64,000 nucleotides of DNA from Tubulanus polymorphus (taxonomy: Eukaryota; Nemertea; Palaeonemertea; Tubulaniformes; Tubulanidae). Below are positions 30,786 to 64,000 of this stretch, in pieces. The position numbers were made by a program, and so were the translations under genes. The stretch spans positions 23,590,001 through 23,654,000 of the forward strand of contig NC_134025.1 of assembly GCF_964204645.1 (NCBI RefSeq), given 5' to 3'. Position 1 is the first letter of the stretch. The number at the start of each line of letters is the position of its first letter. The notes under the pieces were generated by a model. That model searched no databases. It worked only from the letters and a program-made list of their open reading frames with translations, and was not told the origin of the DNA.

Positions 30786-33700
30786 ATGCGTAACAAGTCT
30801 TCGAATCACAAAGAACAGAATACGTTTAAGGTACCGGTACCGCAGAATCAAAATAGACGTGGCGTAGAATTATCTTTCAGTAATCATTTGAAAAGAATGA
30901 AGATAAAACTTCTAAACAGTTTCAAATTCAATTCAACGAAGAACTTAAACAGTGCGATGTTGCGGGAGTCAACAGGTATAACATTGATGCGTTTGAATTG
31001 AGCATCACGGCAGCAATTCACTTTGGTAATAAAATGCATTCTCATGACCTCAGAGGGTTTCCGTTGTTTTTCTGACTTAAAATACTGAGAAAACTTGAAC
31101 TTCCATCCCACCCACGGCCACACAGCACAAATGCTTCCATGACCAGAGGCGGGCATGCAACAGGATTTTTTCAGCAGAATACTTCTCCAAAATATTCTTT
31201 GAGAAAATTACTACTACAGACTTTGTTTTTGCACGGTACATGAAATGATAGTTTCCATGGGGTATGAAACTGAAAGGTTAAAAAGGCTTCAATATTAAAA
31301 CTATATTGTTAGGGCCCAAAAAGATGACAGACCTCTATAATGATTTTTTTCTGGGGCCCCCTGGAATTTTCACGTCAGGATTCTGGGAACTCAGCCTCAG
31401 ACTTGGAACTAACATGCAACAACTTTTATGGACATGCAATGTTTCAACAGTTAATTTGTTGTTTCGTTTTTTAGTTTCAGACGTTCACTGATCGGATTGC
31501 GAGTATCAATGTTGATGTTATCCGCAGGATAGGCAAACGTACAGAAACTCCTGAGGTAAAATTATTAAGCCACTTGCATGAGATTGGCTGCTGGATTGTA
31601 CATTGTCTCCAGTTCCAGTTAGATTCAACTCTTGAGTTGAAATGAATTCATCTTAAGTTAGTCGAATGAATTCCTAACTCAGAACTATGGAACTGAACCC
31701 CTGACTCTCTTGTATTTCAGGATGCAGATACATTTTTCAGCGAGAACCTTCAAAAATGGATCGATTTGAATTGCACTCAACACTTTAGTAAGTGATCGGA
31801 TTTATTCAGTGCGTTTATATTCACATAACTTGAAAGCTAAGACACTTCCTAAAGGCCTGTAGAATCAGTTTGTTGTAGCTTGATTGTTGATCAGTTTCTT
31901 TCATTTCCAGCGACCTTCCGCAAAGAGATATCTAGTCAAGTCCAAAGTCTACCTCAACTTCTGTTCCACGAGGTGATTCAAGAAAACAAGCAGAAAATTC
32001 AACTGCATTATTGAACCAGTAATGGAATAATCGATATTTTAACTATTTTCAGGCAACTATTGCAGAGGCTTTAAAAAGACATCTGCAGGTTCCAGAATCT
32101 TTGGCATTAGAGCCCCTTCTTGAGTAAGTAAAGGAAAAACATGAATTATTACCTTTCTCTGTTAGAAATAATGAAATTTATTTAACTTTCCCATGTTGCA
32201 TTGGAACCTGATTTAGTCAGAGATGGAAAATTCACTTATGATACCAAACTAGTATATATCAAGACAAAAATAATGAGGTATATGTAGTCATACGGTGCTT
32301 TTAACCCAATTATTGCTTTGATTTCAGTCTTACAGTGCATCTAGCTCGCGATTTACAGCAAGACTTCTACCCAAAATTTGCCAGCTTCTTTCAAATTATT
32401 ATTGGGCTTTTAGAAAAACACCATAAAAATGCGGAAGTATTGGAACAGCTTTTTACAACGCTGTCGTATCTGTTCAAATTCCAGTGGAGATATATGACAT
32501 CGGATATAAAAACAATATTTAGGTGAGTATGGAAATATAATTGGACATTAGAATAGATGATTGTGACATTCACATTCATTAGTCAGACTACATGAAACCC
32601 TATGTTGGCCTCCATTGACGCTTGTGACTATATGAAACCCTGTTTTTGCCTGCTTTGTAGCTTATATCTGCCACTATTGGATGGAGACAAGAAACACTAC
32701 ATTCGTCGCTTTGCCGCTGAGAGTTTTGGATTTCTTGTGCGCAAAGTAAGATATGGATTTTGAGACGTGTTTGCTATGAAAATTGACAAGGCAAGTGAAG
32801 AAGAAAAATATTGATTCCTGTATTTCCAATTTCAGTGCAGAGACCAGGATGAATTTTTCTTGTACATATTGAAATGTATAGAAGAAAACAAATCAGTAAG
32901 TTTCCCCTGAATCCAAATTGTACTGAAAAAAATGAATTGTAGAATTTTTGTAGCTTAAAACTATTCTTGATTTTCAGTTAGTGGATGGTATCGGTCGAGT
33001 GATATTTGAAGTGGTGAAAGGAGTAAAAGAAAAATTGCATAGCAACGCGGAAACTGTTAGTATCAGCCTTTCTGTTTTCCCCAGTGGTTAGGAGTTAATT
33101 GCTGTGATTTGATTTCTTGAACATTTCTCACCTAGGTTTTGAAGTTATTGCTATCAAGGCTGAAGCCATCAACTGAATATTCTCCTGATTTGGCGTATGA
33201 ATTGCTTGAAGTGACTTTACAGTGTATTCTAGAACATACCACAAAAGATAATTTGGCTATTGTTTGGAAAGTGGTGCAGGTATGATGAGCATTACAAATC
33301 TTCTGGTCAGTATTGCGCAGTGTAGCAAACTATGTTTCATCGTTCTTTCAATTCTTACAGAATTGCGTCGAAAGTCAGCACGAGGTTCATGAGAAAGCGC
33401 GAGGAAATAAACGCATCGAACAAGGCCAATATAAACACAGATTGCTGCAAGTGCTGCTGTTACTAGTCTCTCATAAAGATGGCGTCGTTATTTATGACGT
33501 GGAATCATTGTGCATCGTAAGTTCAGGAATTATGCTGAAGAATGATTATCGCACCTAGTTCTCGGTAGTTAAACATTGAATTAATCAATGGAATTATTTG
33601 ATTTGTGCTAGTTGTTGGTGAAGTTGCTACAAGGCGATCATCAAGATTATGAAGTCACTGACGTTCTTTTCAATGTAGTGTCTAGTTTATTAATGTCACC

Positions 33701-36700
33701 TCATTGCAAGCTCTCTATTACTGATATTCCGAAGCTCATTTCATTAGTAAGTTTTGTACATTCTTTTAAAACCCCTTTGTATGCGATGACTTAGTTAAAA
33801 TTGATAGTGCTCGTTTCTAACTCGTTCAGGTGTTCAAGGCAAAATGTTCTCGTCATTTACAAATCGCATTTACTGGCCGAATGTTTTCGATGAACATGTT
33901 CGAGAAGGATATGTTACCACCGCTGCTTAATTTCTGTCACACGATCATCAGCGCGAAAGATGAGGAAGCCCACATCGATGTTTTAGCCCTTGTGACCGAG
34001 CTCCTGTTGTTGAAAGCTCCGTTACATGTGGATAGTTCTACGTTGGATACCTTTCACTCTTACATGCTTGATTTTAGCGTCGTTCAAAAAGGGTAAGTTC
34101 ATCTGAACATCCGATAAACTGGATGCATTTGATTTTGATTACAAAATGACTCGCGTGAATTGATTGTAATTCTTCATTTGTTTGTCGTCGATGGGTGGTC
34201 ATTTAGTCCCATGAAGAACGTGTTATTATCATGACTAGATGCACACTCATCGCTGACTTGCAAAACTTGCTGCAGATAAAAAGTATATGATGTTGGTTGT
34301 TAAACTTAACTAGCTTTTGATACGGTATTTTGCTTCTTATTCATGGATTAAGTATGTTTTGATGTATTGATGTTGTCAATGGATGGGTGAATGTCTTGTC
34401 CATGTCCACGTAGAAAGCATGACTAGATATACACTCATCCCCTTACAATATTCTAACCTTCATTTCATTGCCTGTTTCTTGCGATAGGAGTTACGTTGTA
34501 TTCTGAGTGCTCCACATATTGGCTGAATTTATGGTTACGATGATGGGTATTCATCTAGAGCTTGTGGCGTATGTTTCATGACTAGATGTATACTCATCCT
34601 TGTTATCGTAAGAAATCTACTCGACTGGAAAATGCTTATTGTGTGAATGCGGTTTGAGATAGATGTGTACCTCGCTAGTCTATGTAGTGATCGTTTCATG
34701 ACTAGAAAGTTACTCATCTATGTCGAACTGAAAGAAACGCTGGAAGGAAGGTACTCGGCCAGAACTGCATTACCGATTCTTGCCTTAGATGAATGTCTAT
34801 CTAGTCCATGTTCTAAGATTTCATGACTAGATGAACACTCATCCCGGGCATGAATCCCCATCGTTGGTCGACCTTTGAAAATTCCTTCAAATCTCTTCAA
34901 CGATGAAATTGTCGTATGTGCTGGGTTTATGTCTAGTCCATGCTTTATCGAACACATGACTAGATGTATACTCATCTCGTAAGGCTATTATAAACGGCTA
35001 ATGATTTGATCGTTTATTAAGGCGCTCAGTGCGATGAATGTTTGTCTCGTCCATGAATCAAAATGACATGACTAGATATACACTCATCTCTTATGTCCCG
35101 CCATAATCAACAGTGGTGAAAGAATAGAAAGGATTTCGTACTTCTCTGTCCAGATCTGCTCATAGCTTTGATTTATTTAGACTCTTTTGATACTTTGAAT
35201 TACAGTTCATTTGAATATTTCAGGATAGTGCGTCGTGCGCGTACATTTCCGTCATACATTCTGTCAGTAATCGATGAATGTAATCTCGATCAGCCGCTGA
35301 ATATCTGGGCTGCACTTGTCTGTTTGCCTCATATCCGTCCTATCGATGATAAACAATATAACGAAGCCGTGTCAACTGCAATAGATAAGTTGCTAACTTC
35401 TCTTGAGACTACACCCGAGTCAACTGAAGGTATTTGAGTTGTTTATTATGTTCCTTTAAAGGTGTATAATTTTGGCCTATGATATTCCATTATATGGTAT
35501 TGTATGGTTTAGTAAACAGGCAAAATGTGTGAAATAAAAGTTAGTAACTATAGTTTTAATGAATATTCACGAGTTTTTGGATTTCACGCTTTTACATTTT
35601 AGATGTCAAAGAGGCATTATTATTTCAAGCTATCCATTGTCAAATGTGTAAACAATGTCCTGGAGAATTCTATAGTTCGATTGAGTTTTTACGCCTATTA
35701 GATTGGCTTAAGTATGTCTGCAGATATTGCGAATTTAATAATCCAACTCAACATACGGTGTTCCAAAAATTGAAATTCTTACATTCATTTATGTTGCAGG
35801 AGAAATCCCACGTCAGAACATGCTCTGAGAAGTTTTGATATCTATCTGTATTATACCGTTACGAATGGACATGAAGAGAATATCAGTAATGAAACATTCC
35901 AAGATGTTTATTCCATATTGAAATGGAATCTAGCATCATCTAGTCACCAAGTAAATATGATATTATATATTTGATGGATATCTAGACTTATCGTTAACTC
36001 GTCGGTTTTCTGATGTATGTCCTTGGTACGTTTAGGTGCGTTTGATGTCGTTGCGAATTTTATCCCAGTTTCCTCTACGCTACCCAACACTAGAAGATCA
36101 GGGCGCTGAACAGCTCGGTGTATTTCGTATATGCCTAGAAGCAGAACTAGTACCGCTGACAGTGCACCACTATCGCACTAAATTGATGTACCTGCAAAAA
36201 CTAGAATGTAACATTGTTTACATTAATCTTCCAGTTATTGAGGGAAACTATATGGAGGTAACTTATACGAAAGATATTTGCTGAAATATGAATTAACTGA
36301 TCAGTTTTCCTTTGAATGTTTGAAAAAGAGATTCTTTGCTAAATGTACTATAATTTTCCTATTTTTCAGGCTCCACTTCTTTTCTTGCTTGGTAATTTGT
36401 ATATCAATTTTACCTTGATATGGCAACCAATAAGCAATTTGATTGCGTCATACTCGGAAGGAATGGACAGAGCACCATTCTGGAAGTTATTTGCCCAACA
36501 ACTCAAAAAAGCTACTGATATTGCAGGTAATAAAACAGATCAGATCACAGCTACCCTTTATTTACGCACAAAGTTTCCCTAATAAACTAAGTTCGAGTTA
36601 AAAATGTTTTGATCTTATAACCAGCACTTTTAATGGAATTCATATTTTGGGACCAAGATGTAGACTATGATTAAGGCAAGTTTCTCAGGCAAATTGATCT

Positions 36701-39700
36701 GAAATAAGAGGGGAAAATCAGGACTTGTTGTAGTATGATTTGTCAGTTGACCTGACTGATCGATTTTACTCATTTTCAATGTTATAGAAATAGTCAGCTG
36801 AATGGCTAGTATTCTATATTTTTATTGCTATTTTCAGAAGCTATGGTTGGTGTCGGGGGATCTGCTGTATCTAGTACACAATCATCAAAATGCATCAACT
36901 CTACCCAAGCACCAGATACTCTTCGACAGATTTATACTAGTCAATACCATTCTGAGTTAACGGCTCCCTACCGACCAGATCATTGTAACTATCGGCAACT
37001 ATTGTGGCAGACGATGCACCTATTTTCAGATGTTTGTGAAGCGAAATCACGTGACCTAGTACCTCTACTAGTTCGATTTTTGCAGTGAGTATTCGCTCTA
37101 AGCTTTTTGCTGACGCGATTTTTCTTGCGTGGTGAGATTTAGTGAAATACGTGAATTGACCTAATCACTTACAGAAATGAGTTCTACAGCGCTGACCACA
37201 ACAGTGCTCCGACGCAAGATTTAACCCGAAAGGTTGCTTCAGATATGGAATCGTCCGAGAAAAAAACTGACGAATGTATGGAGACTGAGAAGGATGTAAG
37301 TTTTGCAATGGAAGATCAGGAAGAAACAGAGGAGGAAAAAGAAGATGTGAAAACAAAAAGAAGTCGTAAAATGGTGATAAAGTAAGTTTTTGTCCGTGAT
37401 ATAATCTGGATGACTGGTACCATAGTAGAAAAATGAATATGCCCAAAGCCTCCCTGTTCATTTAGATAATATCATTTTCTCTTATTAGGTTAATGATTGC
37501 CAAGTTACGACTGCTTGCTAAATTTCACAGTCCTTTATCAGTTTATTTGGAACCGAAATTAAAGGAGCTTTATTTTGAAGTGAGTAGTTGATACCAAGAA
37601 TGTAAGAATCTACGTGATGAAACTTTCTGACACTTCATAACAATTTATATCCCTCCTTTTGTAGCTATTAGCCCATAGAAATTGTGAATTACAGAAGGTT
37701 GCGTTTGATTGTATTATGACATACAAGTACAAATACTTGATGCCATACAAGTGAGTGGGCGTCTGATTTTTTGTTCCTTTTCCAGTTTACAGAGTTCTGT
37801 CATATGAAAAGATTTTTAATTCCAGAGAAAACTTCATGCGGTTATTCGATGACAGGAGGTTCAAGACTGAAATTGTCATGTTCAGCATCGACAGTGAAAG
37901 CAATGTAATTCTTGAAGAACATCGAGAGGAACTTCTTCCAGTTCTGATGAGGTAAACTTCCGAAATATACAATTGAACTTCTAATGTGCAACGTTTTATG
38001 TTCAATTTCATGTAAATTCATTTCGATATTCAGGATCTTATACGGAAAGATGCATAGCAAAACTGGAAAAGACACATCAGGGAAGAGTAACTCCACCTAT
38101 AGAAAGAGTATCGTGTTTAGATTCTTAGCTGGCTGTCGACAGAAGGAATTGAAAGTGTTCATTGATCTTATCTTCGGACCATTTCAGAAATTTACTGTTG
38201 GTTAGTATTGAAAAAGTTAAGTCCAATCTGAAGGTTTTATCTTTTCTTCCCACTTTTACGTATTGCCTAATGTGTTGTCTTTCATTCGCAGGTGATGTAT
38301 CTACTGTGATCTCTGAACTTGTTGATAATCTTGATCTAGAAAAGATGATCCCCATCAGAAGGCAACAGAGGTATGTTGATGCAAATCGTTTTTCTCTCCT
38401 TTAAATAGATCATATAAAGCGAATTTACCAATGTCACTTATATGCACCCGGATATCTATATTTCAGTATTCTTTCAACGATGGATGTTGTTTTCAAGAAG
38501 TTGGGTAATTTAATTGATGTTTACTTGCCTGATATGTTGAGGATAGTGTTGTGTTTGACGGCGATAACTCAAGCCGTTTTGGATCGACGGGTTCAGGTTA
38601 ATCCCAAAGCCATAACAATGTTGAAAACTCTCAGGATGCTCGGTTTGACGCGTATTATCCAGGTTTGTCCTGCTCCGAAATCGATTTCTAAGCATTTGTA
38701 TTTTAGGAAATTTATTCTGAAAATATATCTATAAATTTTAGTTCTTTGCTTCTTTTGAGACGTATAATTTCACCAAAGAAGAAATCGATGCAATATTCCA
38801 AGCAGCCATCTGGCCTCAGGTTTGTGAAAAGTTTAACAGAATATTTTATCTCGGGGTATTTGTATTGATCGATAAGTCGAAATTTATTTGAAATTTATTC
38901 GATATTTTAGTTGAAGAGATTACCGGTCGAAGGGGTTTATCATCCGACAGCTTTACTGAAGCTTTTGAATGTTTGGAGCCGAGATCCTAGGTATGTAAGA
39001 TATACCTGTATCTCAGGATTCTCAATTCAAATACTGGTTCGTGCGATCGATGTACGTTTCTTCTACGCTCGCATTCTCTCATTTAGATTCTTGCCGTTAT
39101 TGGGTAAATGCCTCGATGACGATCGAAGCGTGTACCCTGTACCGTTTATCGTGAAACTTCTCGTTATGAAGAATGTCAGCAAGACAGTGGTTCAGGTAGT
39201 AATGGAAATCGTCGAAAGTTTACTGACAACTGAAGATTTTGAAGAGACCGAAGAATTGAAAGCCATCGGCGATATCGGTTCAAGCGCGGAAGTCGCAACG
39301 GACAGTAAGTTCTTAATGTTAATCGTCTTGATTGTTGTCGACGAAAAGAATTTTCAAATAACTTTTTGGTTTCGTGAATTTCAGTTGAAGTGAATTACGG
39401 CAGTCGTCTGCTGCTTCCACACGTTCCAGTTGTGCTCCAGTATTTGAGCAGCGTTGTTCGTGAAATGACTTCTCAGAAACCGAAGAAATCTGCACCAACC
39501 AGAGATCTTAATATTCTGTCGCAGTAAGTTTAATGCATTGATATGTTACCATGATTGTCAAATTTTACTTCATTGAATTTATTGATGTAAGTGTTTACTC
39601 ACCTGATATATTTTCAGTATAAGTCAATACGTAAAAGATGCCCAGCAAAGCGGTGTCATCATCAATTTGTTTTTGCCGTACCTTGCCCGTCTAGTGGTCA

Positions 39701-42700
39701 AAGATGAAGATGCAGAAGTGCACATTATTAATTCGTTAGCGAATCTGATCAAACAAGTTGATCAGCCTGTCGACTTCGTGATGTAAGTCCATCTACTGTA
39801 AAAACGATGAATATATGCTATATCTGGCTTTAAGCACTTAAATATCACGTGATTTGATTCTGTTACAGACCCGTCTCAAAACTTTTCTCGGTCATTATCA
39901 ACCGGTTGTCTCGGACTGCTTTGTGCAGTATTGTTTTGGTATGTATCGAATATTTAACATTCAGATTCACCTTGATGTCGATTGCTTTAAGTTACGGTAT
40001 TATTGTCATAATAAACGTCATTTCTCTTGTATTTTTTCATCAGTCTATTGCTGATAAGGCACCCTGGTTGAAAGAAGCAGCTGAAATTGTTGATAAGGTA
40101 TGTACGATTAAGATATGTGAATTACAACTATAGATTCAACAGGTGATGCTAGATGATGTCTCCCACTTATACTTGTATCTTGATTGTGGAGCCTTTCTAG
40201 TGGAAGACATGAGTGTTGGTTATAAGATAAATGTTTTCCAAGAAAAATAAGGCTCCATTCATTTAACTGCCCTCCTCTCTCTGATGATAAGAACAGTCTA
40301 GTTGGATTGAGTGATAATGAAAATCATATTTCTTTCAGTTGAATTCATGGGATCCACGTCGCGTTGAAGAACCAGATTACAACACGAGATTAGATGCGTT
40401 CGAAACAATCAACAAGATTGTTCGCGAGATGAAAAAACTGCGCGAACATTTCATTATTCTAGTCATGCATAACTGCTCTTATTTTATGGCTAATGTAAGT
40501 TGTATCATCTTGATTACTTCTAATTCAAGAGTAAATTGCGGGTGAACGAGGTATGTCTACATGTTCATTCTCTACATCTGTCATTTTTCAGCTGGATGAC
40601 ATTTCGATTAGGGCAAGCTCGTCGTTTTGTATGACGGAAATTATCAAAAAACTGTCGTCGATGTCGATAGAATCTTCGAAACGCCAAAACTTCCTCAACA
40701 ATGTATTGTTACCAGAAATTAGGTCTGGTCTGAGAATTAAAAAAGAGGTAATGATAGTTGAGTGACCATACCCTGCATCAGTATTTACAATCGTACATTT
40801 TCTGTATATGATAATTCCTTCCGTCGTAGGCTCCTCGTCATGAATTCATCAAGATTTTAGCGTGCGCAGTAAGGTCCTTCCCTAAACACGAAGTATTCGC
40901 CGAATTGTCGCAATTGTGCGACGCCGAAGACATCGAAAAAGACTATTTCGAGAACATACAACACATTCAAATGCACAGGCGATCTCGCGCAATGAAACGC
41001 GTCATGTATCTCCTAGCTGAAAAGTCGATCAGTCACAAGATATTGCTGGCGTACCTGATGCCTATGGCATCGGCGTATCTCCAGGATAGGACATACGCGG
41101 CGACGTCGCATTTGATCGACGCTGCCATTGAAATGGTCGCCGCGATTTGTAAACGTCTCCCGTGGAAACAGTACAATCAAATATTACGCCACTTTCTGGC
41201 ACAGCTTCCGAAAAGTCTGGAAAATCAGAAAATGATCGTCCGGTAAGATGACCTCTTATTTTCATGAATTTAGAAGTGACGTATTATTGCATAACAGTTC
41301 ATTAGATATGAAATATTCACTTTTGCAGGGTTTTGGTGGCTATTCTGGATTCATTCCATTTTGATCTCTCGGCTGCTCCAGAGTTGGGTCTTTCCGGAAC
41401 GAATGTAGCTCCACCGAAACAACTGGATGGTCGAGGTTAGTTTTTCCTTTGTTGAATTTTTGACCTGATTGAGCTGGTAAATGATATCCAAAACTCTTTT
41501 TATCTCGTGTAGATAATGTAGAAGATGAAGATGACGTTGAAGATGAGGAGAAAAATGAGGATTCTCACTCGGCTGTTGAGACTAAGTGTACTCCGGACGA
41601 GGCGCTGAGGATCCATAGCGCTATAATCGGCTCAATTCTGCCGCAGTTACGTGGTATCCTTACGCAAAAAGTAAATGTTCATTTTCTCTCATTAGTCTTT
41701 GCAATTATACCGCTTAACAAAGTCTTACATTTGCATGTTCTAACAAATGATATTTTCTATAGTTGAATATTCATGATTGTAGGTCAAAGGAGATGACATT
41801 CACAAAATGGCGGGGAGCAAGTATGCTGAAGATGCAGAGATTCTACGTGTCCCGATTGCTATAGCGATGGTGAAACTACTTCAGCAGCTTCCAAAGAGTA
41901 CATTCAGAACATATTTACCAAGGTAAATGAGAGAATAAGAGGGGACGGCTCTTAACATCTGGACTGAATTATTATGTCATCTGTAACATTGTTTTTCAGT
42001 GTTCTTTTGAAAGTTTGTGAATTTTTACGATCGCGGACTATAGAAATCCGTGATACGGCACGCGATACGTTGATGAAGATTTTGAAATCGCTCGGTCCGG
42101 CATACTTCGTTACTATATTAAGTGAACTGCGAACAGCTTTAACAAGAGGTTACCAGTTGCATGTGCTTGGTTATACGGTCCATGCCCTTATGAAATCGAT
42201 CGAATCTGATTTGACATGCGGCATTCTTGATAAAACTCTCGCAAGTCTTGTACAGGTAACTATTCTAGCCGAGTAACTCGGAACTCCTCCAAACATTTCC
42301 GTTGAAAAAATAATTATTCCGATTGAAAGGTATTTCAAGAAGAACTGTACGGTGAAGTTTCGAATGAAAAGGATGTTCGCGGAATAACCGAGAAATGTCC
42401 GGAAGCTCGTAGTGTAAGGAGTTTCGATGCGTACGAGATGGTTGCTACGTATGTTGGTAAAGGCATGATCACTAAATTACTTACTCCACAGAAAGAGGTG
42501 AGTTACCGATCGGTGTTAGAGGCATGAATTGTATTAAGTCGAATCGCTTGATTTAATTTCTATCCAAATAACCTTGCTCCATCTAAATTGGAAGAATATA
42601 CAGTCATGAAATTGGAGTGCAGATTTTGAAATTATTCATATATCGTAGATACTAGATACGACTCATAATCGTAAAACAGTGCAACGTGTACATGAAGTCT

Positions 42701-45700
42701 TACAGCGTATTGGCAACGGTTTATTAGAGAATAAAGATCTTCCGGTTGATTCGCTATGTATGCTTGCTCACGGTCTCATTATGGAATCTCTGCCATTGAT
42801 GACTTCAGTTGCGAAGTAAGTGAAAATGTTCAGTTCAAGAAATGATTAACTAATGACTAGTTTTGTCAATTTTGATTACCAGGTTGTTGTAAACGTATTT
42901 ACTTCCCCTATTAGAAATATTTTTAGTTTTGAAAATGAGATTCTTTTCTGGTTATGGTAATATCCCATTTTGTCTTTTTGGTACGCATAGGGCAAAGCAA
43001 GCTGAGCCGGCACCAGTTGATCCAACTAAAAGACCGCCAAGCTCTCTCCTGATAACTCATGCTGCACCTAGAGGTGGAATCAAACCTAAACATAATACAA
43101 AAACAAACATGCACATTGTGGTGGAATTTGGATTACAGGTAACGATTAATCATTGCTTGCTTACATGAATTTCAGTTAAATATGCCACATCTAACCTGAG
43201 ACCTGAAATAAGATTTGTGACTTTAAGAAAATCAATGTATCCGATAATGTATCCACAGGTGTTGTATATGCTGCTGAAAAGAGGCCGTTTGATTGCTTCT
43301 CAAGGCAATAATATGGAACTACTTGACCCATTTGTTCCGATCCTTACTGACTGCTTAGAATCTAAACATATCAAAGTAGGTTGGATGTAAATGACTGTAT
43401 AATTTTCCTGCACTTTGCGAAATAAATCTTATGAAATGCTTGTGGTTATCTTTCAGATCACAACTGTTGCGTTGAGGTGTTTAGCTTGGATTATCAAACA
43501 GCCTTTGCCTTCTGTCAAAGATTGCATCACACGAATAACAAATGCCATATTTGTGCTGCTGAAAAACTATGCCGTACCTGGCGCAGCGAAGGGTGATAAC
43601 TTTGAAATGGTTTTGATGTGTTTCAAGGTACATCCATCATCTTAGATTTCAAGAACATTTTTCCTTGAATTTTAATATTCTAAAGAACTGAAACAACACT
43701 GTTTGTTAATGGCTTGTCGTTTATTATTAATCCTCTCTTGATCTTGGTTATTATAAAGTCCTGTTTCTAAAGATATGGCCACATTAAGTTTTTAAATCCA
43801 TTGTTTGGTTTTGTTTAGGCAGTTACTGTTTTAGTGCGTGATGTTCAACACCATACAATTTCCGATGAACAACTTCAAGTATTGCTAAATTATGTTGAAG
43901 CTGATATGTATGATTTCACCAGACAATCAACTGCTTTCACTCTCTTCAAGGTACTGAAAAGCATCATTCGTAATTATGTAATTATTGATTTATTTGCTAA
44001 AGGAAATTAATAAGGTTTCCATTTTATGATTTAAGGCAATTTTGTCGCGGAAATTAACGTTGCCAGAATTGTACGAAGTGATTGAAAAAATAGAAAAGAT
44101 GTCGATAACCGATGAGTCGCCATTAGTTCGTCTGCAGTGTCGACAAGTCATCTTACAGTTCCTACTCGATTACCCGTTCACTATCAATCAGATGAAAAAA
44201 CATTTGGATTTCTACGTTACGCAATTGAACTATGAACGCGAAACCGGGCGAGAGTCGGTGTTGGAGATGCTCGCGTCGATATTTATGTCGTTTCCTAAGA
44301 AACTGTTGCATAGCTATTCAGGATATTTCTTCATTCCCATGGCTGCTCAGCTGGTGAATGATGATTCGGCTAAGTGTAGGAAATTAACGGCGCTTGCTAT
44401 GAAGTCATTAATGGAAAAGGTAATGTTCAACTTTACTCAACGACGAGAGATGGAAAAGCACTAAAATAAAATCTCAGTCTCCATATCCTGTATACGGAAC
44501 AAGTGGTTAGGGTACCCCAATAACTAGTACACTTTATCTCATTTGATGTAAGACCTTTCGAGCTTACTAAAGTATAGATTCTTTGCAGATCGAAGCATTT
44601 AAACGCGATGAACTGTTCGCTATTATCAAGCTCTGGTGGCACGATGAGAAAGTGGTTCACAGACGTCTCGCCGTTCAGTCAGTTGGACTGATGGTTGAGG
44701 TTGAGTCTGCAACATTTGAACGACGTCTGCCGGATGTTATCCCGATTATTCAGCAACAGATCGAACCAGGACGTTATTCTGAGGTATCTACCTAGACATT
44801 TACAAGCTTTTTCAGCTACGTTTTAAACTATTGGTTGCATTGTATAAAAAATGTTGTTTTTGACGCTCAAATTTCAGACTGATACGGAAAGTGAAGCTAA
44901 AGTCATGGATCATGTTCTTTTCAACCATCTGACAACATTAGCAAAAATCCTCAAGGAATGTTACGTAATCGGCAATGCCAATCATGCAGCAGATATGGCT
45001 GTAATATGGGGTAAGTGGGCATTTTGTATCTGAACTTAGTTACTTGGATGTTTAAGTCTAAATGTAGCTTTGGAAATGATTGAATTTTATAATTGCAGAT
45101 TATGTACGTAGTCACTTACGATATTCACACACTTGGGTTCGCTTAGCTGCTGCTCAGCTATTCGGTATTCTGTTTGCCTCGCTGAAAATAGAGGACTTTA
45201 ACAAATCTGATGTGTCCAGCAATGAATACATGTTTGTTGATTCCAAACTGAAGGTATGCGATGAAAATGGTCTAATGTCTAACAGACAAGTCTGAGAAAT
45301 CAAATTATCTGCTACACTATTGCAGAAATATAAGCGGATATACACTTACCTCTTACTCTTATATATACTTGCCTCTTCAGATTCGTGAGCTTACCCGAGA
45401 ATTTCTCCATCAATTCAAGGGTTTCTTTGATGATGAGCTAGGTGAACAGGTAAATTGTGTTGAACATTAAACAAAAAAATTGCGTTCCACCTTGAGAATG
45501 TTGTCGAAAAATTGCAACTAATATTTTTGTTAATGTGATGTGCTTTTAGTTAGATTCGATTACAATACAATTTTGTTTGCTAGGTCATAAAAAATCTAGT
45601 CTTCCTAGCGAAAGTTACCACTTCAGTAAATCCCGACGATCCTGTTCCTGAGAATAAGGACGACGATGAGGAGGTTGATAAGACAAAGAGAGTTCCGAGT

Positions 45701-47058
45701 CTGCGTTGGCTGATCAAAATGATGTGCAAAGAAGCTACATTTGAGGGCGCTCAGAATCAACTGACAACTGTGAAGGTAGGAATCAAATAATTATTGACTT
45801 ATTCATTATGAAGTGGTTTAACATGTTGGTTTTTCATTTGGCTTCGATTTATTTTCAGCGAACATTAGCTTTTAAATTTCTGGGTGCTATCGCCACTCAG
45901 CTGGACAAGGAGAAGCTGTCTTACTATCTGAAATTCATGTTGCCGCCAGTCTGCAGGGCCGCAACTGATAATTCATCAATTTCTGGTAAATTCTGATGAA
46001 TATTGAATACTTCGAAGTTATCGGCTTTCGTGTATTTTCCAACGTCGAGAGTTGAAAGAAAGAAATAGAACTGTAAGGTTCGGTCGTTTCAGATGAAGCC
46101 CTGAAGCTGTTGGCCCAAGAAGTGCTCGAGGTGATGAAGGGAATTGTAGGTGTAGAAGCATTCACGAAAATGTACGCTACAGTTTACAAAACGATGGGCG
46201 AAAAACGTGAAGAAAGGAAGAGAAAGCGAGCAATGGATGTACGTTATTCAGCAATATACTTCACGGAAAATTTAAAATGCCTGTGTTGCCTATTCCCTTT
46301 ATTAAAATCTTCAAAGCTGGGAAGAGATTTTAGAATTGCTTTTACATGGCTTATACAATTTTGGGTACTAATGAATGCTAATCACGAATGATTAACAATT
46401 CGTAATAATTTCATTCCACTTATGGCACACTTTACCCCCCATTAAATAATGTGCAAACAGTGGATGTGGCACATTGTTTTCACAATAATTGTCGCCGATT
46501 ATTTGAAGTAGTGGATAATTATAGCATTACATCGGATTGTTGTGATGTCAGCGTAATTGTGTTCAGCTGTGACCGGAACCGATTACGGCGCATTAGCCAG
46601 TCTGGTCTTTGTGCATGGAGAGATTTACACCTGTTGAAAAAGAGCTTTGTTTTTCAATGCAAAGTCACTAAGTGTTGAGCACCAGCCGCTTCGATAAACA
46701 ATGGTTATAATCACTTAGCTCTTCAAAATTACTAATTATTTAATCCTTTGCAAAGCGAATAATTCTTCCCAATACAGTGTTTATTATTATAATTCTCTTA
46801 CTTCCTCTAAAAATCTTTATGTGTGATTTATGACAGGTTTCTTAGAAGTTAGAATGTCAATACTACGTATCAATTACTGAATTTTCTTGCCTTATTTTTC
46901 TATTTCTATAGGCTATTTCAATGCCGGAGGTCGCCGCACGACGCAAGATGAAGAAGCATTTACAGAAGCAAAACTCTAAAAAACGAAAAATAGTTGAAAC
47001 GCGTACTACGAAAACTTTCAAGAAGAAAAAATTGTCCGATAAAAAGTCTGAATATTAA
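30786..47058 (+). CDS. UTP20: UTP20, small-subunit processome component
   Basis: A giant gene of several dozen short exons spanning 16.3 kb. Early exons: 30786-30830 (ATG CGT AAC...), 31475-31555, 31721-31787, 31911-31972, 32053-32123, 32328-32522. The last exon is 46912-47058 (TAA). UTP20/DRIM is a HEAT/ARM-repeat nucleolar protein of roughly 2,800 residues in human. It is needed for 18S rRNA processing in the U3 snoRNP/90S particle. Diagnostic stretches are FQTFTDRIASINVDVIRRIG at the N-terminus, HLARDLQQDFYPKF, IRRFAAESFGFLVRK, LDWLKYVCRYCEFN, an acidic low-complexity exon near 37165-37380, and a very basic C-terminus (MPEVAARRKMKKHLQKQ, FKKKKLSDKK) that fits nucleolar targeting. All exons share strand and joinable phases. 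The 34093-35223 intron hosts seven miR-279-like hairpins. The 46239-46911 intron has no recognised content. Confidence 0.93.
34189..34253 (+). ncRNA. mir-279: miR-279 family precursor 1 (UTP20 intron)
   Basis: The 5' arm (34189-34212) pairs with the 3' arm across a short loop. The predicted mature 3p is 34232-34253 and begins TGACTAGATGCACACTCATC. The seed GACTAGA is that of miR-279. Confidence 0.82.
34382..34441 (+). ncRNA. mir-279: miR-279 family precursor 2 (UTP20 intron)
   Basis: The 5' arm is GATGGGTGAATGTCTTGTCC (from 34382). The 3p is 34420-34441, TGACTAGATATACACTCATC plus two bases. The arms are complementary with a few mismatches and the loop is about 15 bases. This is one of the best-formed hairpins. 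Confidence 0.87.
34542..34600 (+). ncRNA. mir-279: miR-279 family precursor 3 (UTP20 intron)
   Basis: The 5' arm GATGGGTATTCATCTAGAGC (from 34542) faces the 3p at 34579-34600, which starts TGACTAGATGTATACTCATC. The loop is short. Confidence 0.82.
34660..34720 (+). ncRNA. mir-279: miR-279 family precursor 4, divergent body (UTP20 intron)
   Basis: The 3p is 34699-34720 and starts TGACTAGAAAGTTACTCATC. The seed is kept, but positions 9-12 differ from the other six. The 5' arm TAGATGTGTACCTCGCTAGT (from 34660) has changed to match, which supports a selected hairpin. Confidence 0.82.
34788..34845 (+). ncRNA. mir-279: miR-279 family precursor 5 (UTP20 intron)
   Basis: The 5' arm GATGAATGTCTATCTAGTCC (from 34788) pairs with the 3p at 34824-34845, which starts TGACTAGATGAACACTCATC. 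Confidence 0.85.
34919..34978 (+). ncRNA. mir-279: miR-279 family precursor 6 (UTP20 intron)
   Basis: The 5' arm GGGTTTATGTCTAGTCCATG (ending 34942) pairs with the 3p at 34957-34978, which starts TGACTAGATGTATACTCATC. Confidence 0.85.
35033..35090 (+). ncRNA. mir-279: miR-279 family precursor 7 (UTP20 intron)
   Basis: The 5' arm GATGAATGTTTGTCTCGTCC (from 35033) pairs with the 3p at 35069-35090, which starts TGACTAGATATACACTCATC. It is the last copy, 133 bp before the next UTP20 exon (35224). Confidence 0.85.
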
Positions 47059-49985: not shown

Positions 49986-51527
49986 ATGGTAAGTACATGG
50001 ACTATAATTGGTTTCGATCGTGAATTTCTTAATCTTCTAGAAATACTTGACACAATTCCAAAATTTAGGATAATGCTTTTGAATATTGTTTTCAACGTTA
50101 TCAAAATATCTAGGTTTAACTAGACGAATAATAATGTCCATAATCAATCATATCATGTTTGATAATTGATTTAATTTCATATTTATTTCAGATCCTGTCT
50201 GCTCGCAAACCTTCCGTCAACTTTCATTGCGTAGAGGATCTGGCGCGTTCAGCTGTCCAAATAGATTATGACGGTAAATATGATCTCTAAGTAAAACGTT
50301 TGAAAAAATTTGAAGTAAATACAATCCTTAGTAGACAAATACAATCCATTCGTACGCGTTAAAAATCCTCATATTCTACTTGTATTTGCTTTAAACGATT
50401 GAATGATCGGTAACGAAAATTCGCGAGGACCAATCCTAATACATAGTTTCCTACCATTTAGATAATAATCTTTTCTTTATTTTTTCAGAATATCCAATTC
50501 CATCGTCGTCACCGGTCAATAGCGTATGTTCTCAACAGTCTATAGACGAAACGCTGTCGTCCAGTCGAAGTTCAACGCCGCCTTCCGAAAATTCGTACGG
50601 AGAAAGCGCCGATGAAAAAACGCCAGCATCCAAACAGAAACAGCAGAAAAAATCCCGTTCACTATTCAAAAGCCAGCAAACAACCGTACTAGAAAGTTTC
50701 TTTCTTCAGAATCGCTATCCCGATATCAGCGACATTGAAAATCTAGCCAAAAAACTTAATGCATCAGAAAGTAAAATCAAGGTACGGTATTCCAAAAAAT
50801 ACATACGATCTTATTATATTAGGGGGTATCTTACGTTACCCCCTAAAACTATGATTTAATTTTTCTCCTGCATCATTTGCCCAAAACTGTATAATGATAT
50901 ATAAAAAGATATTGGTATATAAAGATCAATGAACTTTAGATTTGATTGGAAAATAGGTAATCATCTTGACGACACACTAAATTCCCGTTGAAACCATATT
51001 TCAACAAAATCCCGCTATGCATTAAGAAACGTTTCCCTTGAGCTATAGGCTAGTTAACTCTAGCTCCAGGAAACCTCCACGACCTTTATTGTATTGTGGT
51101 GTTTGACTGTTTTGATATAGAATATTTTCACAACAATTGGAAAAAAATTACGGAATACAAAACTGTTGCATATTTTGCTTTTCATCTAACGATATCAATT
51201 GTATATTTACAGGTTTGGTTCCAAAACAAACGCGCTCGTAACAAGCGACGTTTGGCACAGCAACATCAAGACGGGACGACATCACCGCCGTTATCTCCTC
51301 CGATTAGTGATTCCTCCGCGAAATACCAAAAAACCATCGCATGTTCGTCGCTTATGAAGAATATCAATCCAGTGTATCAACAACAACCTCAAAAGCAGCC
51401 GAATTTTTACCACCATTCACAACAGAGCCACCACGCTCAGCGACTTTGTCATAATCAGACCTACGGATTTCAGTATCAAATTCCGAACTCTCAATTTTTG
51501 TATGGATACAACTTTTATGGACTATAA
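49986..51527 (+). CDS. Divergent homeobox transcription factor
   Basis: Four coding exons: 49986-49988 (only the ATG, then GTAAGT), 50192-50273, 50489-50781 and 51213-51527 (TAA). The product is about 230 residues. The homeodomain lies mid-protein. It begins near KKSRSLFKSQQTTVLESFF, continues NRYPDISDIENLAKKLNASE and ends KIKVWFQNKRARNKRR. The invariant W48, F49 and N51 are present, with Q50. The intron between KIK and VWF, at about homeodomain 46/47, is a position common in PRD-class genes. The N-terminus is Ser/Thr-rich and the C-terminus is Gln/His/Tyr-rich, a possible activation region. No homeobox family could be assigned; helix 1 and 2 residues are unusual, so it may be a fast-evolving lineage-specific member. 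AATAAA at 51653-51658 fits the 3' end. Confidence 0.9.
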
Positions 51528-57549: not shown

Positions 57550-60500
57550 TTAGTTCGCTGCTGCCAATTTTCGATCGGTCATTGTATGATAAGCAATGAT
57601 GCCGGCAATTCCTGTTAAACCACAGTTGATTAAAGTATCACCAAACCTGAAATATAAACCTGTTCACATTGATTTTTGGAAAAAGCTTAACATATCTATG
57701 TAAGTAGGGAATAACAATCGAAAAAGCAGATGTAATACGTATTTTGATATATATATATAAGATTAATTGAACCCGCATTGAGAGAATTTTTACTTACCCA
57801 AATGCTTTCTTCTTTTGGAACTTATCGACATCATTGTTTGTAGAGGCAGGTTTGATATTTGTGTATCTCTGAAATGCAAAAGACATTCCATTCACCATTT
57901 CATTTGGAGAGATTGTGAGATGATATACATGTATGCAATGTGAAATTAGCTTATTAATTTACTTACACGATCGTTCTCCTTTCCAAATACCACACGGGTA
58001 TCTCTTAGGTCACTAAGTTTGTTGAGACGAATATCTCGTCTATCAGCACGGGTATCCCTCATATCAGCACGGGTATCTCTCATGTCTCGTCTATCAGCAC
58101 GGGTATCCCTCATATCAGCTCTGGTATCTCGCATATCTCGTCTATCAGCACGGGTATCCCTCATATCAGCACGGGTATCTCTCATATCAGCACGGGTATC
58201 TCTCATGTCTCGTCTATCGGCACGAGTATCTCTCATATCAGCACGGGTATCCCTCATATCAGCTTTGGTATCTCGCATGTCTCGTCTATCAGCACGGGTA
58301 TCTCTCATATCAGCACGGGTGTCTCTCATGTCTCGTCTATCAGCACGGGTATCTCTCATATCAGCACGGGTGTCTCTCATGTCTCGTCTATCAGCACGGG
58401 TATCTCTCATATCAGCACGGGTGTCTCTCATGTCTCGTCTATCAGCACGGGTATCTCTCATATCAGCACGGGTGTCTCTCATGTCGCGTCTATCAGCACG
58501 AGTATCTCTCATATCAGCACGGGTGTCTCTCATGTCTCGTCTATCAGTACGGGTATCTCTCATATCAGCACGGGTATCTCTCATGTCTCGTCGATCAAGT
58601 GACTGTGTGCTGGCTCGGGTATCTCTTACATCACGTCTATCAGCACGGGTATCCCTCATATCAGCTCTGGTATCTCTCACGTCCCGTCTATCAGCACGGG
58701 TGTCCCTCATATCAGCTCTGGTATCTCTCATATCTCGTCTATCAGCACGGGTATCTCTCATATCAGCTCTGGTATCTCGCATGTCTCGTCTATCAGCACG
58801 GGTATCTCTCATATCAGCACGGGTATCTCTCATATCAGCTCTGGTATCTCTCATATCTCGTCTATCAGCACGGGTATCCCTCATATCAGTACGGGTGTCC
58901 CTCATATCGGCACGGGTATCTCTCATGTCTCGTCTATCCGCACGGGTATCTCTCATATCAGCACGAGTATCCCTCATGTCTCGTCTATCAGCACGGGTGT
59001 CCCTCATATCAGCACGAGTATCCCTCATGTCTCGTCTATCAGCACGGGTGTCCCTAATATCAGCACGGGTATCCCTCATATCGGCACGGGTATCTCTCAT
59101 ATCAGCACGGGTGTCCCGCATATCGGCACGGGTATCTCTCATGTCTCGTCTATCAGCACGGGTGTCCCTCATGTCAGCACGGGTATCTCTCATATCAGCT
59201 CTGGTATCTCTCATGTCGCGTCTATCAGCACGGGTATCTCTCATATCTCGTCGATCAAGTGACTGTGTGCTTGCTCGGGTATCTCTCATGTCTCGTCTAT
59301 CAGCACGGGTATCTCTCATATCAGCACGGGTATCTCTCATGTCTCGTCGATCAAGTGACTGTGTGCTGGCTCGGGTATCTCTTACATCCCGTCTATCAGC
59401 ACGGGTGTCCCTCATGTCAGCACGAGTATCCCTCATATCAGCTCTGGTATCTCTCATATCTCGTCTATCAGCGCGGGTATCTCTCATATCAGCACGGGTA
59501 TCTCTCATGTCTCGTCGATCAAGTGACTGTGTGCTGGCTCGGGTATCTCTTACATCACGTCTATCAGCACGGGTATCCCTCATATCGGCACGAATATCCC
59601 TCATATCAGCTCTGGTATCTCTCATGTCTCGTCTATCAGCACGGGTGTCCCTCATATCAGCACGGGTATCTCTCAGATCGGCACGAGAATCTCTCATGTC
59701 TCGTCTGTCAGCACGGGTATCTCTCATATCGGCACGAGTATCTCTCAGATCGGCACGAGAATCTCTCATGTCTCGTCTATCAGCACGGGTGTCTCTCATA
59801 TCGGCACGGGTATCTCTAACATCACGTCTATCGGCACGATTGTCCCTTATCTCGGCACGAGTATCTCTCATATCGGCACGGGTATCTCTTATATCTCGTC
59901 GATCAGCACGGGTGTCCCTCATGTCAGCACGAGTATCCCTCATATCAGCTCTGGTATCTCTCATATCTCGTCTATCAGCGCGGGTATCTCTCATATCAGC
60001 ACGGGTATCTCTCATGTCTCGTCGATCAAGTGACTGTGTGCTGGCTCGGGTATCTCTTACATCACGTCTATCAGCACGGGTATCCCTCATATCGGCACGA
60101 ATATCCCTCATATCAGCTCTGGTATCTCTCATGTCTCGTCTATCAGCACGGGTGTCCCTCATATCAGCACGGGTATCTCTCAGATCGGCACGAGAATCTC
60201 TCATGTCTCGTCTGTCAGCACGGGTATCTCTCATATCGGCACGAGTATCTCTCAGATCGGCACGAGAATCTCTCATGTCTCGTCTATCAGCACGGGTGTC
60301 TCTCATATCGGCACGGGTATCTCTAACATCACGTCTATCGGCACGATTGTCCCTTATCTCGGCACGAGTATCTCTCATATCGGCACGGGTATCTCTTATA
60401 TCTCGTCGATCAAGTGACTGTGTACTTGCTCGGGTATCTCTGACATCACGTCTATCAGCACGGGTGTCCCTCATGTCAGCACGAGTATCCCTCATATCAG

Positions 60501-62097
60501 CTCTTGTATCTCTCATGTCTCGTCTATCAGCATGGGTATCCCTCATATCGGCACGAGTGTCCCTCATATCAGCTCTTGTATCTCTCATGTCTCGTCTATC
60601 AGCACGGGTATCCCTCATATCAGCACGTGTATCCCTCATATCAGCACGGGTATCCCTCATATCAGCACGGGTATCTCTCATATCTCGTCTATCAGCACGG
60701 GTATCCCTCATATCAGCACGGGTATCTCTCATATCAGCTCTGGTATCTCTCATATCAGCTCTTGTATCTCTCATGTCTCGTCTATCAGCACGGGTATCTC
60801 TCATGTCTCGTCTATCAGCACGGGTATCCCTCATATCGGCACGAGTGTCCCTCATGTCAGCTCTGGTATCTCTCACGTCTCGTCTATCAGCACGGGTATC
60901 TCTCATATCAGCTCTGGTATCTCTCATATCAGCTCTTGTATCTCTCATGTCTCGTCTATCAGCACGGGTATCTCTCATGTCTCGTCTATCAGCACGGGTA
61001 TCCCTCATATCGGCACGAGTGTCCCTCATGTCAGCTCTGGTATCTCTCATGTCTCGTCTATCAGCACGGGTATCTCTCATATCAGCTCTGGTATCTCTCA
61101 TATCAGCACGAGTATCTCTTATATCTCGTCGATCAAGTGACTGTGTACTTGCTCGAGTATCTCTCACATCACGTCTATCAGCACGGGTATCCCTCATATC
61201 GGCACGAGTATCTCTCATATCAGCTCTGGTATCTCTCACATCCCGTCTATCAGCACGGGTATCTCTCATATCAGCTCTTGTATCTCTCATGTCTCGTCTA
61301 TCAGCACGAGTGTCCCTCATATCGGCTCGGGTATCTCTCATATCTCGTCTATCAGCACGGGTATCCCTCATATCAGCACGGGTATCTCTCATATCTCGTC
61401 TATCAGCACGGGTGTCCCTCATATCAGCACGGGTATCTCTCATGTCTCGTCTATCAGCACGGGTATCTCTCATATCAGCTCTGGTATCTGTCATATCAGC
61501 ACGGGTATCTCTCATGTCTCGTCTATCAGCACGGGTGTCCCTCATATCAGCTCTGGTATCTCTCATGTCTCGTCTATCAGCACGGGTGTCCCTCATATCG
61601 GCACGAGTATCTTTCATATCAGCTCTGGTATCTCTCACGTCCCGTCTATCAGCACGGATGTCCCTCATATCAGCTCTGGTATCTCTCATGTCTCGTCTAT
61701 CAGCACGGGTATCTCTCATATCAGCTCTGGTATCTCTCATGTCACGTCTATCAGCACGGGTATCTCTCATATCGGCACGAGTTTCTCTCATATCAGCTCT
61801 TGTATCTCTCACGTCCCGTCTATCAGCACGGGTATCCCTCATATCAGCACGGGTATCTCTCATATCAGCACGAGTATCCCTTATATCAGCCTGAATTTTT
61901 TTCATGGCGATTGCTGTATTGAATCGTGTTTCCCGTCGAAAGGGGCCATAGCTAGCCAATTTGTTTTCTTTCATCTGCGCAAAGGTTTCATGAGAAGTAC
62001 TTCTCCATTCCAATTTGGTGTTGACTGCATCTGGGACGACAGTGGTAATACATATAAGTACTACAATTAGACTTAACGAGGCACGTTGTCCTTCCAT
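57550..62097 (-). CDS. Giant RDTRAD-repeat secreted or membrane protein
   Basis: Three coding exons: 62097-57967, 57868-57798 and 57646-57550 (TAA). They give about 1,432 residues. The ATG at 62097-62095 is chosen because it starts a signal peptide (MEGQRASLSLIVVLICITTV) right after a TTTCAG acceptor in the 5' UTR. A short unique region (EWRSTSHETFAQMKENKLAS) is followed by about 1,290 residues of tandem MRDTRAD (7 residues) and RRDMRDTRAD (10 residues) units. Seven interruptions read RASTQSLDRRD. The C-terminus is unique: a Lys-rich patch (DKFQKKKAF), then a hydrophobic stretch (LINCGLTGIAGIIAYH) and a charged end, so it may be membrane-anchored. The alternating Arg/Asp pattern suggests a charged helical rod or disordered polyampholyte. 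No family was recognised. A structural or mucus role would be a guess. Confidence 0.8.
59399..60412 (-). repeat. 507-bp in-frame tandem duplication inside the repeat gene
   Basis: 59399-59905 and 59906-60412 are head-to-tail copies, offset by 507 bp (169 codons). I found no difference between them by eye. Each contains one STQSLD interruption and the rare variants RAEIRDNRAD and RDSRADLRD. Confidence 0.85.
60755..61090 (-). repeat. 174-bp in-frame tandem duplication inside the repeat gene
   Basis: The marker ACGAGTGTCCCTCATGTCAG recurs at 60841 and 61015, 174 bp (58 codons) apart, with near-identical flanks. The outer limits are approximate. Confidence 0.7.
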
Positions 62098-64000
62098 CGT
62101 TGCTCTGAAATGATGAAGATTTCTTATTTCAATTATCAATTAGATATACGACAGGTATTATATCATTTAGATTTACAATGCCCGACCTAGCATTCCAAAA
62201 ATAGAAACAAATTTAAAGTTTTATGAAATATCTGTCAGTGTAAACAATTTTCGTTTTTGGATCAACCATTTCAATGCACTGATATTGACGAGTCAAAGTA
62301 CATTGACCACACCTTTCTGCTCTCAGAGAAAGTGTCTTATCCTGTCCAATTTTAGAGTCCTCGTGTAGAGATTAATCAATATCTGCTCAAGGTTTTTGAA
62401 CGATGATTGAATACGATTTCATATTTTTCTTGTGTCCAATTACGATTATAAATTCTGATTAACTTGTGAATGTTTGCGATAGTTGCGCGGTTTACAGAGA
62501 GTATGCAAGAAAAAGATGGTCAGAAAGATAGCACACGATCTTTAAACACACCTTGTGTGTGAGGCGAAATGGAAGTTGATATCAGTACTGAGACACATTG
62601 ACGGGTCAGTTCACCAGAGGGGTAGCAAAGCGTTCATTCATAAAGGAAACAGCTCGTAACCACACAACAGCGTGTTAGTTACCATAATCTTAAAAGGACT
62701 AAGCAGCCAATGAAATAACTGAATTTCTGAGTCCTTTCAAAGCATGTTCTTCTTGACCCCTTAATGAATCTTTCACCACGATTATCTATCACGCTTACTT
62801 GCTTGCGCGTCCGTTAGTTCATAGACACACGTCAATTACAGTTAGGCCTAACTGTGACTGTGCAGTTCGCCACTTACACATTTGACTTAAGTTTATTTTT
62901 TCTCTGGGATCGGTTTTTGGATATTTCGCTCAATAAAACGAAATGTCTTTTGAACACACACCTCAAATTGGTAAAGAGGCTCAATTTTATGAACTAAATC
63001 AGTTTCCATTCCTGGCATTCAAAATCAAATCACATTATCAAATTCTATTCAATTAAAAGATCATGGTTCGTAGGCATGGAAACACAGGAAATATATTGTT
63101 TAAAACCAAAAAATGACCGGTCATTGCTCTGTAAATATGAGAAAAAAGAGTTTCCGCAATCCTTCAGTACAATTTGTGCATGTTCAAAATTTAAGAGAAA
63201 TACCCCCAGACAACCCCCTGCAATCACAGTGACATTTTGAAAGAATAGTCTTGCTCCCTTTGAAAAAATTGGCAAAAGTTACTCAATAAGGTGATCTGAA
63301 TTGGTGTTGTTCCGTGTATGAAAACGTTACGAGACTATTACGTAGAAACCCCCTGCTTTCACACAAAATTATTCTCTGGATGTCTTTGTAGCCTAAAGAT
63401 TATCATTGTTAAGAATAGTTATAGAATTCAGAAAGGTATTCTAACAGGTTCTGTTCCATTGATAATATGTTATAGACATATTACATACTGATTGGAATAA
63501 TTCAATTCAATGCGGAGATAGAGCACATTTATAAAACTTTTAGGTGAGAGATTTAAAAAAAAACTAAAAACCTCGAAAATTGAAATAACACGATACAGGG
63601 AGCCGCGAAACTGCAACATCGCAACAAATGATAATTATACATCCGTTTTCACATTAAGAAAATTGTGTATAGATTTTTTTTATCTATACGTTTATCAATT
63701 ATGCATACGAGAGAGTTGCGCGTTATATAAATGAGCAGGAATCACTAGTAGGTTATGATCCGGTACGTAATTTTAGTGTAATTCGACTCCTCACTAGAAG
63801 TATGGAATGTCTTAGAACAAAAACACGAAGGTCAGAAGAAGAACAGAGTGGAATGCATCTTTAACCAAAGAGAGCTGAAATCTATTTTATGCGGTGTAAA
63901 ATGAGAACAACATAACCGCTGTTGCAGGTGTGGTAAACTTCTCGATGAACCCTAAGTGAAAAGCTCGTTCATTATTGCGTTACTGTAACTTATCAAACAC
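62098..64000. other. Upstream region of the repeat-protein gene, no gene seen
   Basis: The TTTCAG acceptor at about 62105-62110 (minus) shows that a non-coding first exon lies somewhere upstream, but I could not place it. The remaining 1.8 kb is AT-rich with only short, non-coding open frames. Confidence 0.5.

Follow-up and report, generated by a model that had tools for sequence, protein, structure and literature searches.

The window analyzed here, a 64-kb stretch of the Tubulanus polymorphus genome, carries a UTP20 gene on the plus strand, which we delineated with a simple exon-chaining model. The model includes one spurious exon (34706-34750) and missed another near 35800-35945, which was added by hand. 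Across an intron whose splice sites can be read directly, exon 33830-34092 continues in frame into exon 35224-35429. The spliced exons align to human UTP20 (PDB 7mq8; E=1.1e-88) in a single alignment spanning the intron junction, and match the Pfam UTP20_N domain (2.3e-35). Seven mir-279 hairpins lie within this intron, the first beginning about 83 bp 3' of the donor site. The initial annotation had placed seven hairpins in one 1.1-kb UTP20 intron, in host orientation, and the splice sites and exon matches bear this out. The features are as follows, with 5p and 3p strands as predicted, Rfam mir-279 (RF00754) scores in bits and minimum free energies (MFE) in kcal/mol.

31481..47058, plus strand: UTP20 host gene, first recognized exon to stop codon, about 54 exons in the model
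34093..35223, plus strand: UTP20 intron with the whole miR-279 cluster, 1,131 bp, GTAAGT ... TTTCAG
34176..34265, plus strand: hairpin 1; 5p 34190-34213, 3p 34232-34253; 58.7 bits; MFE -35.9, z -5.64
34368..34453, plus strand: hairpin 2; 5p 34382-34404, 3p 34420-34441; 57.1 bits; MFE -31.6, z -4.94
34528..34612, plus strand: hairpin 3; 5p 34542-34564, 3p 34579-34600; 49.1 bits, E 1.6e-8; MFE -31.6, z -5.58
34648..34732, plus strand: hairpin 4, with a divergent middle of the 3p arm; 5p 34662-34684, 3p 34699-34720; 40.6 bits, E 3e-6; MFE -34.6, z -6.13
34774..34857, plus strand: hairpin 5; 5p 34788-34810, 3p 34824-34845; 58.9 bits; MFE -35.7, z -7.75
34906..34990, plus strand: hairpin 6; 5p 34920-34942, 3p 34957-34978; 59.0 bits; MFE -25.7, z -3.41
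35019..35101, plus strand: hairpin 7, the weakest; 5p 35033-35055, 3p 35069-35090; 35 bits, E 1e-4; MFE -23.2, z -2.60

Elsewhere in the window, the region downstream of UTP20 (50440-51524) holds a divergent homeobox gene, recognized by a weak Pfam homeodomain match, followed by C-type lectin-like exons. Further on, the minus strand has an open frame of 1,397 aa (57946-62139) that overlaps long plus-strand open frames and is possibly repetitive sequence; a Pfam search of this frame returned no match.

The 3' arms TGACTAGA were found on the plus strand at all seven of the 5' ends first proposed for them (34232, 34420, 34579, 34699, 34824, 34957 and 35069). Folding had been suggested as a check, and each 3' arm pairs with a GATG... 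5' arm, with MFE values from -23.2 to -35.9 kcal/mol and z-scores from -2.6 to -7.75; none of 200 shuffles folded as well for six of the copies, and 2/200 did for copy 7. Against the RF00754 gathering score of 56, copies 1, 2, 5 and 6 score above and copies 3, 4 and 7 below, all seven matching at E<=1e-4, and the antisense strand of every copy scores lower than the host strand. The seed of nematode miR-44 is related to that of miR-279, and some mir-279 copies show weak similarity to the corresponding Rfam family (RF00710); in the window, sense-strand scores of 22.2 and 20.3 bits lie far below its threshold of 54, and membership in the miR-44 family was rejected.

The consensus UGACUAGA.....ACUCAUC is intact in all seven copies, and nt 2-8 of each 3p arm spell the seed GACUAGA (as in 18/18 copies genome-wide). 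Nucleotides 1-8 and 14-20 of the 3p arm are unchanged throughout, and variation falls mainly on nt 10-13; over nt 9-13, copies 2 and 7 are alike, as are copies 3 and 6. In copy 4, where a changed 3' arm had been described as matched by a changed 5' arm, some compensatory pairs are indeed present, but a 2x2 internal loop occupies a position where the other copies pair.

We then searched the genome (267.8 Mb in 77 contigs) for further copies. The 16-base motif ATGACTAGANNNNNACTCATC, counted exactly, has 17 matches, all of them within mir-279 hairpins, while the reversed motif used as a control has 0, which excludes chance. A search allowing one mismatch added five places, one being a known divergent copy on C10; no miR-279 hairpin forms at the remaining four (L048-L051). 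Altogether, 18 hairpins were found at six loci, including one variant copy (ACTCACC), a count that may omit more divergent members. UTP20 accounts for seven; C10 has four close to 11.68 Mb (a group of three and a single one) and five more close to 12.48 Mb, and C8 and C7 have one each. Ten of the 11 copies beyond UTP20, which occupy five loci, are intronic. The intronic loci outside the window are:

C10:11677477-11678120, minus strand: three mir-279 hairpins in a gamma-tubulin intron (L017); host matches tubulin gamma-1 at E 2e-202
C10:12479095-12479891, minus strand: five mir-279 hairpins in a PSMC3IP/HOP2-like intron (L018); host identified by Pfam LZ3wCH and a TBPIP-family chain at E 4e-4, the rest by eye
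C10:11684270-11684351, plus strand: single intronic mir-279 hairpin (L014)
C7:4538223-4538308, plus strand: single intronic mir-279 hairpin (L020)

Hosts of these copies were placed by reading the surrounding exons. Of the two single intronic hairpins, one has as its host a gene encoding a CDCA7-type zinc finger (PF10497), the other a centriolin-like gene with leucine-rich repeats and a coiled coil, named by eye from a Pfam match to the repeats only. Thus 17/18 hairpins occupy sense-strand introns of five genes (UTP20, gamma-tubulin, PSMC3IP/HOP2-like, CDCA7-like and centriolin-like); around the canonical C8 copy, no host gene was recognized. The gamma-tubulin host had no match in NCBIfam, and its intron contains minisatellite-like repeats between the hairpins. 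The host strand carries the hairpins in 5/5 recognized hosts, an outcome with a chance of 1/32, which lends weak support to host transcription. A tree of the 18 hairpins did not resolve and showed no grouping of copies from the same locus. By function the hosts belong to ribosome assembly, the centrosome, meiosis and the cell cycle, and we infer a link of the copies with genes that are active in dividing cells or the germ line.

Comparison of the 18 copies, in an alignment built from sequence and not fitted to structure, clearly points to selection on the precursors, acting on structure, seed and 3' end. Identity is 96% over nt 1-9 of the 3p arm and 98% over nt 14-20, against 46% over nt 10-13, 65-69% in the 5p arm, 30% in the loop and 28-30% in the lower stem. 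At this level, nearly all sequence likeness in the lower stem is gone, while pairing is still kept: standard pairs make up 86.9% of the structure, compared with 71.9% for shuffled partners and a maximum of 44.8% for slid ones, and 15 pairs have changed on both sides. The covariation score of 0.441 compares with 0.167 for shuffled and at most 0.135 for slid structures, and none of 500 shuffles scored as high; the seven UTP20 copies considered by themselves score 0.423 against 0.186 shuffled.

Covariation spans a lower stem of 11 bp (alignment columns 3-13/81-91), which is the length that Drosha measures. With the predicted Drosha cut fixed beforehand by the 22-nt 3p strand, a CNNC motif lies 16-18 nt beyond it in 12/18 copies, where 2.75 are expected from flanking positions (binomial P=1.2e-6). 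It is present there in 5/7 UTP20 copies and absent from that position in 6/18 overall and 2/7 in UTP20; away from this peak, no window holds the motif in more than 6 copies. A CNNC placed 16-18 nt into the basal segment on the 3p side is a known SRSF3/Drosha element (PMC7174388).

The sequenced miR-279 strands of Biomphalaria are a 22-nt 3p, ugacuagauccacacucaucca, and a 23-nt 5p, gauggcuguuggucuggugcaug, the latter of the form gaug...caug (PMC7328434). The C8 copy is identical to this 3p strand at 22/22 positions, and the strand ends and lengths of the Tubulanus copies equal those of the snail, which supports the 3p as the mature strand. Overhangs of 2 nt at the 3' side of both duplex ends would be compatible with the predicted fold and with the conservation of the arm ends. 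The initial annotation had read the locus as a real, expanded miR-279 cluster, and several lines of evidence argue for it: the match to the family model, the folding, the specificity of the motif across the genome, the compensatory changes and the place where CNNC falls. Judged from these sequence features, the seven UTP20 hairpins are very probably canonical MIR-279 microRNA precursors housed in one intron.

Other readings of the intron account for parts of these data. Tandem copies, like the minisatellite-like repeats that separate the gamma-tubulin hairpins, are what a repeat family such as a MITE-like element or minisatellite merely resembling a microRNA would leave. The motif is however specific to the hairpins and absent elsewhere in 268 Mb, identity is limited to the two arms and does not extend to flanks or loops, the lower stems covary, and the C8 copy matches miR-279 perfectly; we reject this reading and give it practically no credence. 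Inverted repeats of different copies could also pair with one another, arms 263-348 nt apart, so that the intron would be a long hairpin RNA (hpRNA) or endo-siRNA locus and not a set of microRNAs. This we reject as very improbable, as each unit folds locally with a pre-miRNA geometry of about 60 nt, an 11-bp lower stem and a CNNC at the canonical distance.

Two alternatives that accept the hairpins as MIR-279 carry more weight. MicroRNA duplicates commonly decay, and only part of the seven copies may be active, copy 7 and perhaps 4 and 3 being decaying duplicates: copy 7 has the lowest score and the only shuffles that fold as well, and copies 3 and 4 fall under the gathering score. Against this, nt 1-8 and 14-20 of the 3p arm have stayed unchanged in all seven while loops and lower stems drifted to about 30% identity, and copy 4 still folds at z -6.1; partial decay is unlikely on balance, though worth keeping in mind. 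Many intronic microRNAs have their own promoters, and a promoter within the intron or ahead of it could likewise drive the cluster uncoupled from UTP20 expression. PMC4053815 treats such promoters as an open problem. Here, the entire cluster sits within 1.1 kb of intron in the host direction, its first hairpin close behind the donor site, and the family is sense-strand in every recognized host, so that independent transcription is a possible but minority explanation.

If the hairpins are canonical precursors, the UTP20 pre-mRNA, or a local transcript of the same direction, would carry all seven. Drosha would cut each hairpin at its base, some 11 bp up from where the lower stem ends, and Dicer would then leave a 5p strand of 23-24 nt and a 3p strand of 22 nt, of which the 3p (UGACUAGA.....ACUCAUC..) would be loaded. 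Since the seven copies have the seed GACUAGA in common, one target set is expected, and the mature copies would together repress genes with UCUAGUCA sites. Co-transcription with the host, the choice of strand and a proliferative or germ-line site of expression are what we infer from this arrangement, which would also raise miR-279 dosage and link it to UTP20 transcription, as the initial annotation had suggested. In all, members of an 18-copy family have come to sit sense-strand in introns of five genes, and the UTP20 cluster is one of these placements.

UTP20 itself contains candidate sites for this microRNA in its coding exons:

31931..31938, plus strand: TCTAGTCA 8-mer miR-279 site, candidate feedback site 1, UTP20 coding exon
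35939..35946, plus strand: TCTAGTCA 8-mer miR-279 site, candidate feedback site 2, in the hand-added UTP20 coding exon
40458..40465, plus strand: TCTAGTCA 8-mer miR-279 site, candidate feedback site 3, UTP20 coding exon

These are the only three occurrences of TCTAGTCA on the plus strand of the window. Three sites were reached in 0/4,000 synonymous-codon shuffles of UTP20 (mean 0.10), although the excess was noticed ahead of the test, so the P value is post hoc and optimistic. An overlapping word, ATCTAGTC, is the top over-represented recurrent 8-mer in the UTP20 coding sequence. The centriolin-like gene has one more miR-279 8-mer in a coding exon, and the recognized exons of gamma-tubulin and PSMC3IP showed no such site. 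Target sites in coding sequence are usually weak. In a cross-species study, intragenic miRNAs targeted their own hosts above chance (PMC7016697). The three perfect 8-mers hint at a possible feedback of miR-279 on its host.

Related microRNAs within an intron of a proliferation gene have a precedent in mir-106b~25, carried by MCM7, but that family and lineage are unrelated, and here five hosts carry one family. Like bgl- and lgi-miR-279, members of the same MIR-279 family (RF00754), the Tubulanus hairpins have the seed GACUAGA, a 22-nt 3p ending in ACUCAUC and a 5p that starts with GAUG and ends with CAUG. They differ from Biomphalaria in number, with 18 hairpins against a single miR-279 entry in its table, and the UTP20 copies diverge at nt 10-13. 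Drosophila also has several members with a common seed, the functionally redundant mir-279 and mir-996, which form an operon, and the unlinked mir-286; the operon comprises two hairpins on a noncoding transcript, whereas seven are found here in the intron of a protein-coding gene (PMC4456407). In Tribolium, the mir-279e~2944c cluster and related insect clusters group MIR-279 paralogues (miR-279a to e), some clusters being high in oocytes and early embryos, but they mix several families where a single one is present here (PMC4691753). The MIR-279 family, intronic microRNA clusters and clusters of insect MIR-279 paralogues are thus already known, and the 18-copy expansion is an expanded set of members. 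A partial literature search, outside MirGeneDB, returned no report of the UTP20 cluster or of a lophotrochozoan MIR-279 expansion.

Another family is multiplied in the same genome. To our knowledge, miR-1992 is limited to lophotrochozoans; it has been recorded in molluscs (PMC7328434). Its presence marks the animal as a probable lophotrochozoan. It occurs here as two identical hairpins 277 nt apart (L046 and L047, C1:25379119 and 25379396), and a second cluster is indicated by four one-mismatch matches at C7:4272953-4273862. Tandem growth of microRNA families may therefore be common in the genome of Tubulanus polymorphus.

A broader, rather doubtful scenario would be that MIR-279 multiplied and settled repeatedly, each time in the host direction, in introns of cell-division and germ-line genes (ribosome biogenesis, centrosome, meiotic recombination), so that seed dose would rise with proliferation; the miRNAs would also feed back on UTP20 through the three 8-mers in its coding sequence. 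A conserved protostome microRNA family has grown in one animal to 18 identical seeds, 17 of them in introns of five recognizable genes. If these copies are expressed with their hosts, they would offer a natural system for asking why animals multiply one seed, for dosage, tissue or timing, and for testing whether intronic microRNAs settle by host function. Nucleotides 10-13 vary whereas the seed and the 3' end on either side of them are fixed, and the family can also serve as a natural experiment showing where in a microRNA selection conserves the sequence.
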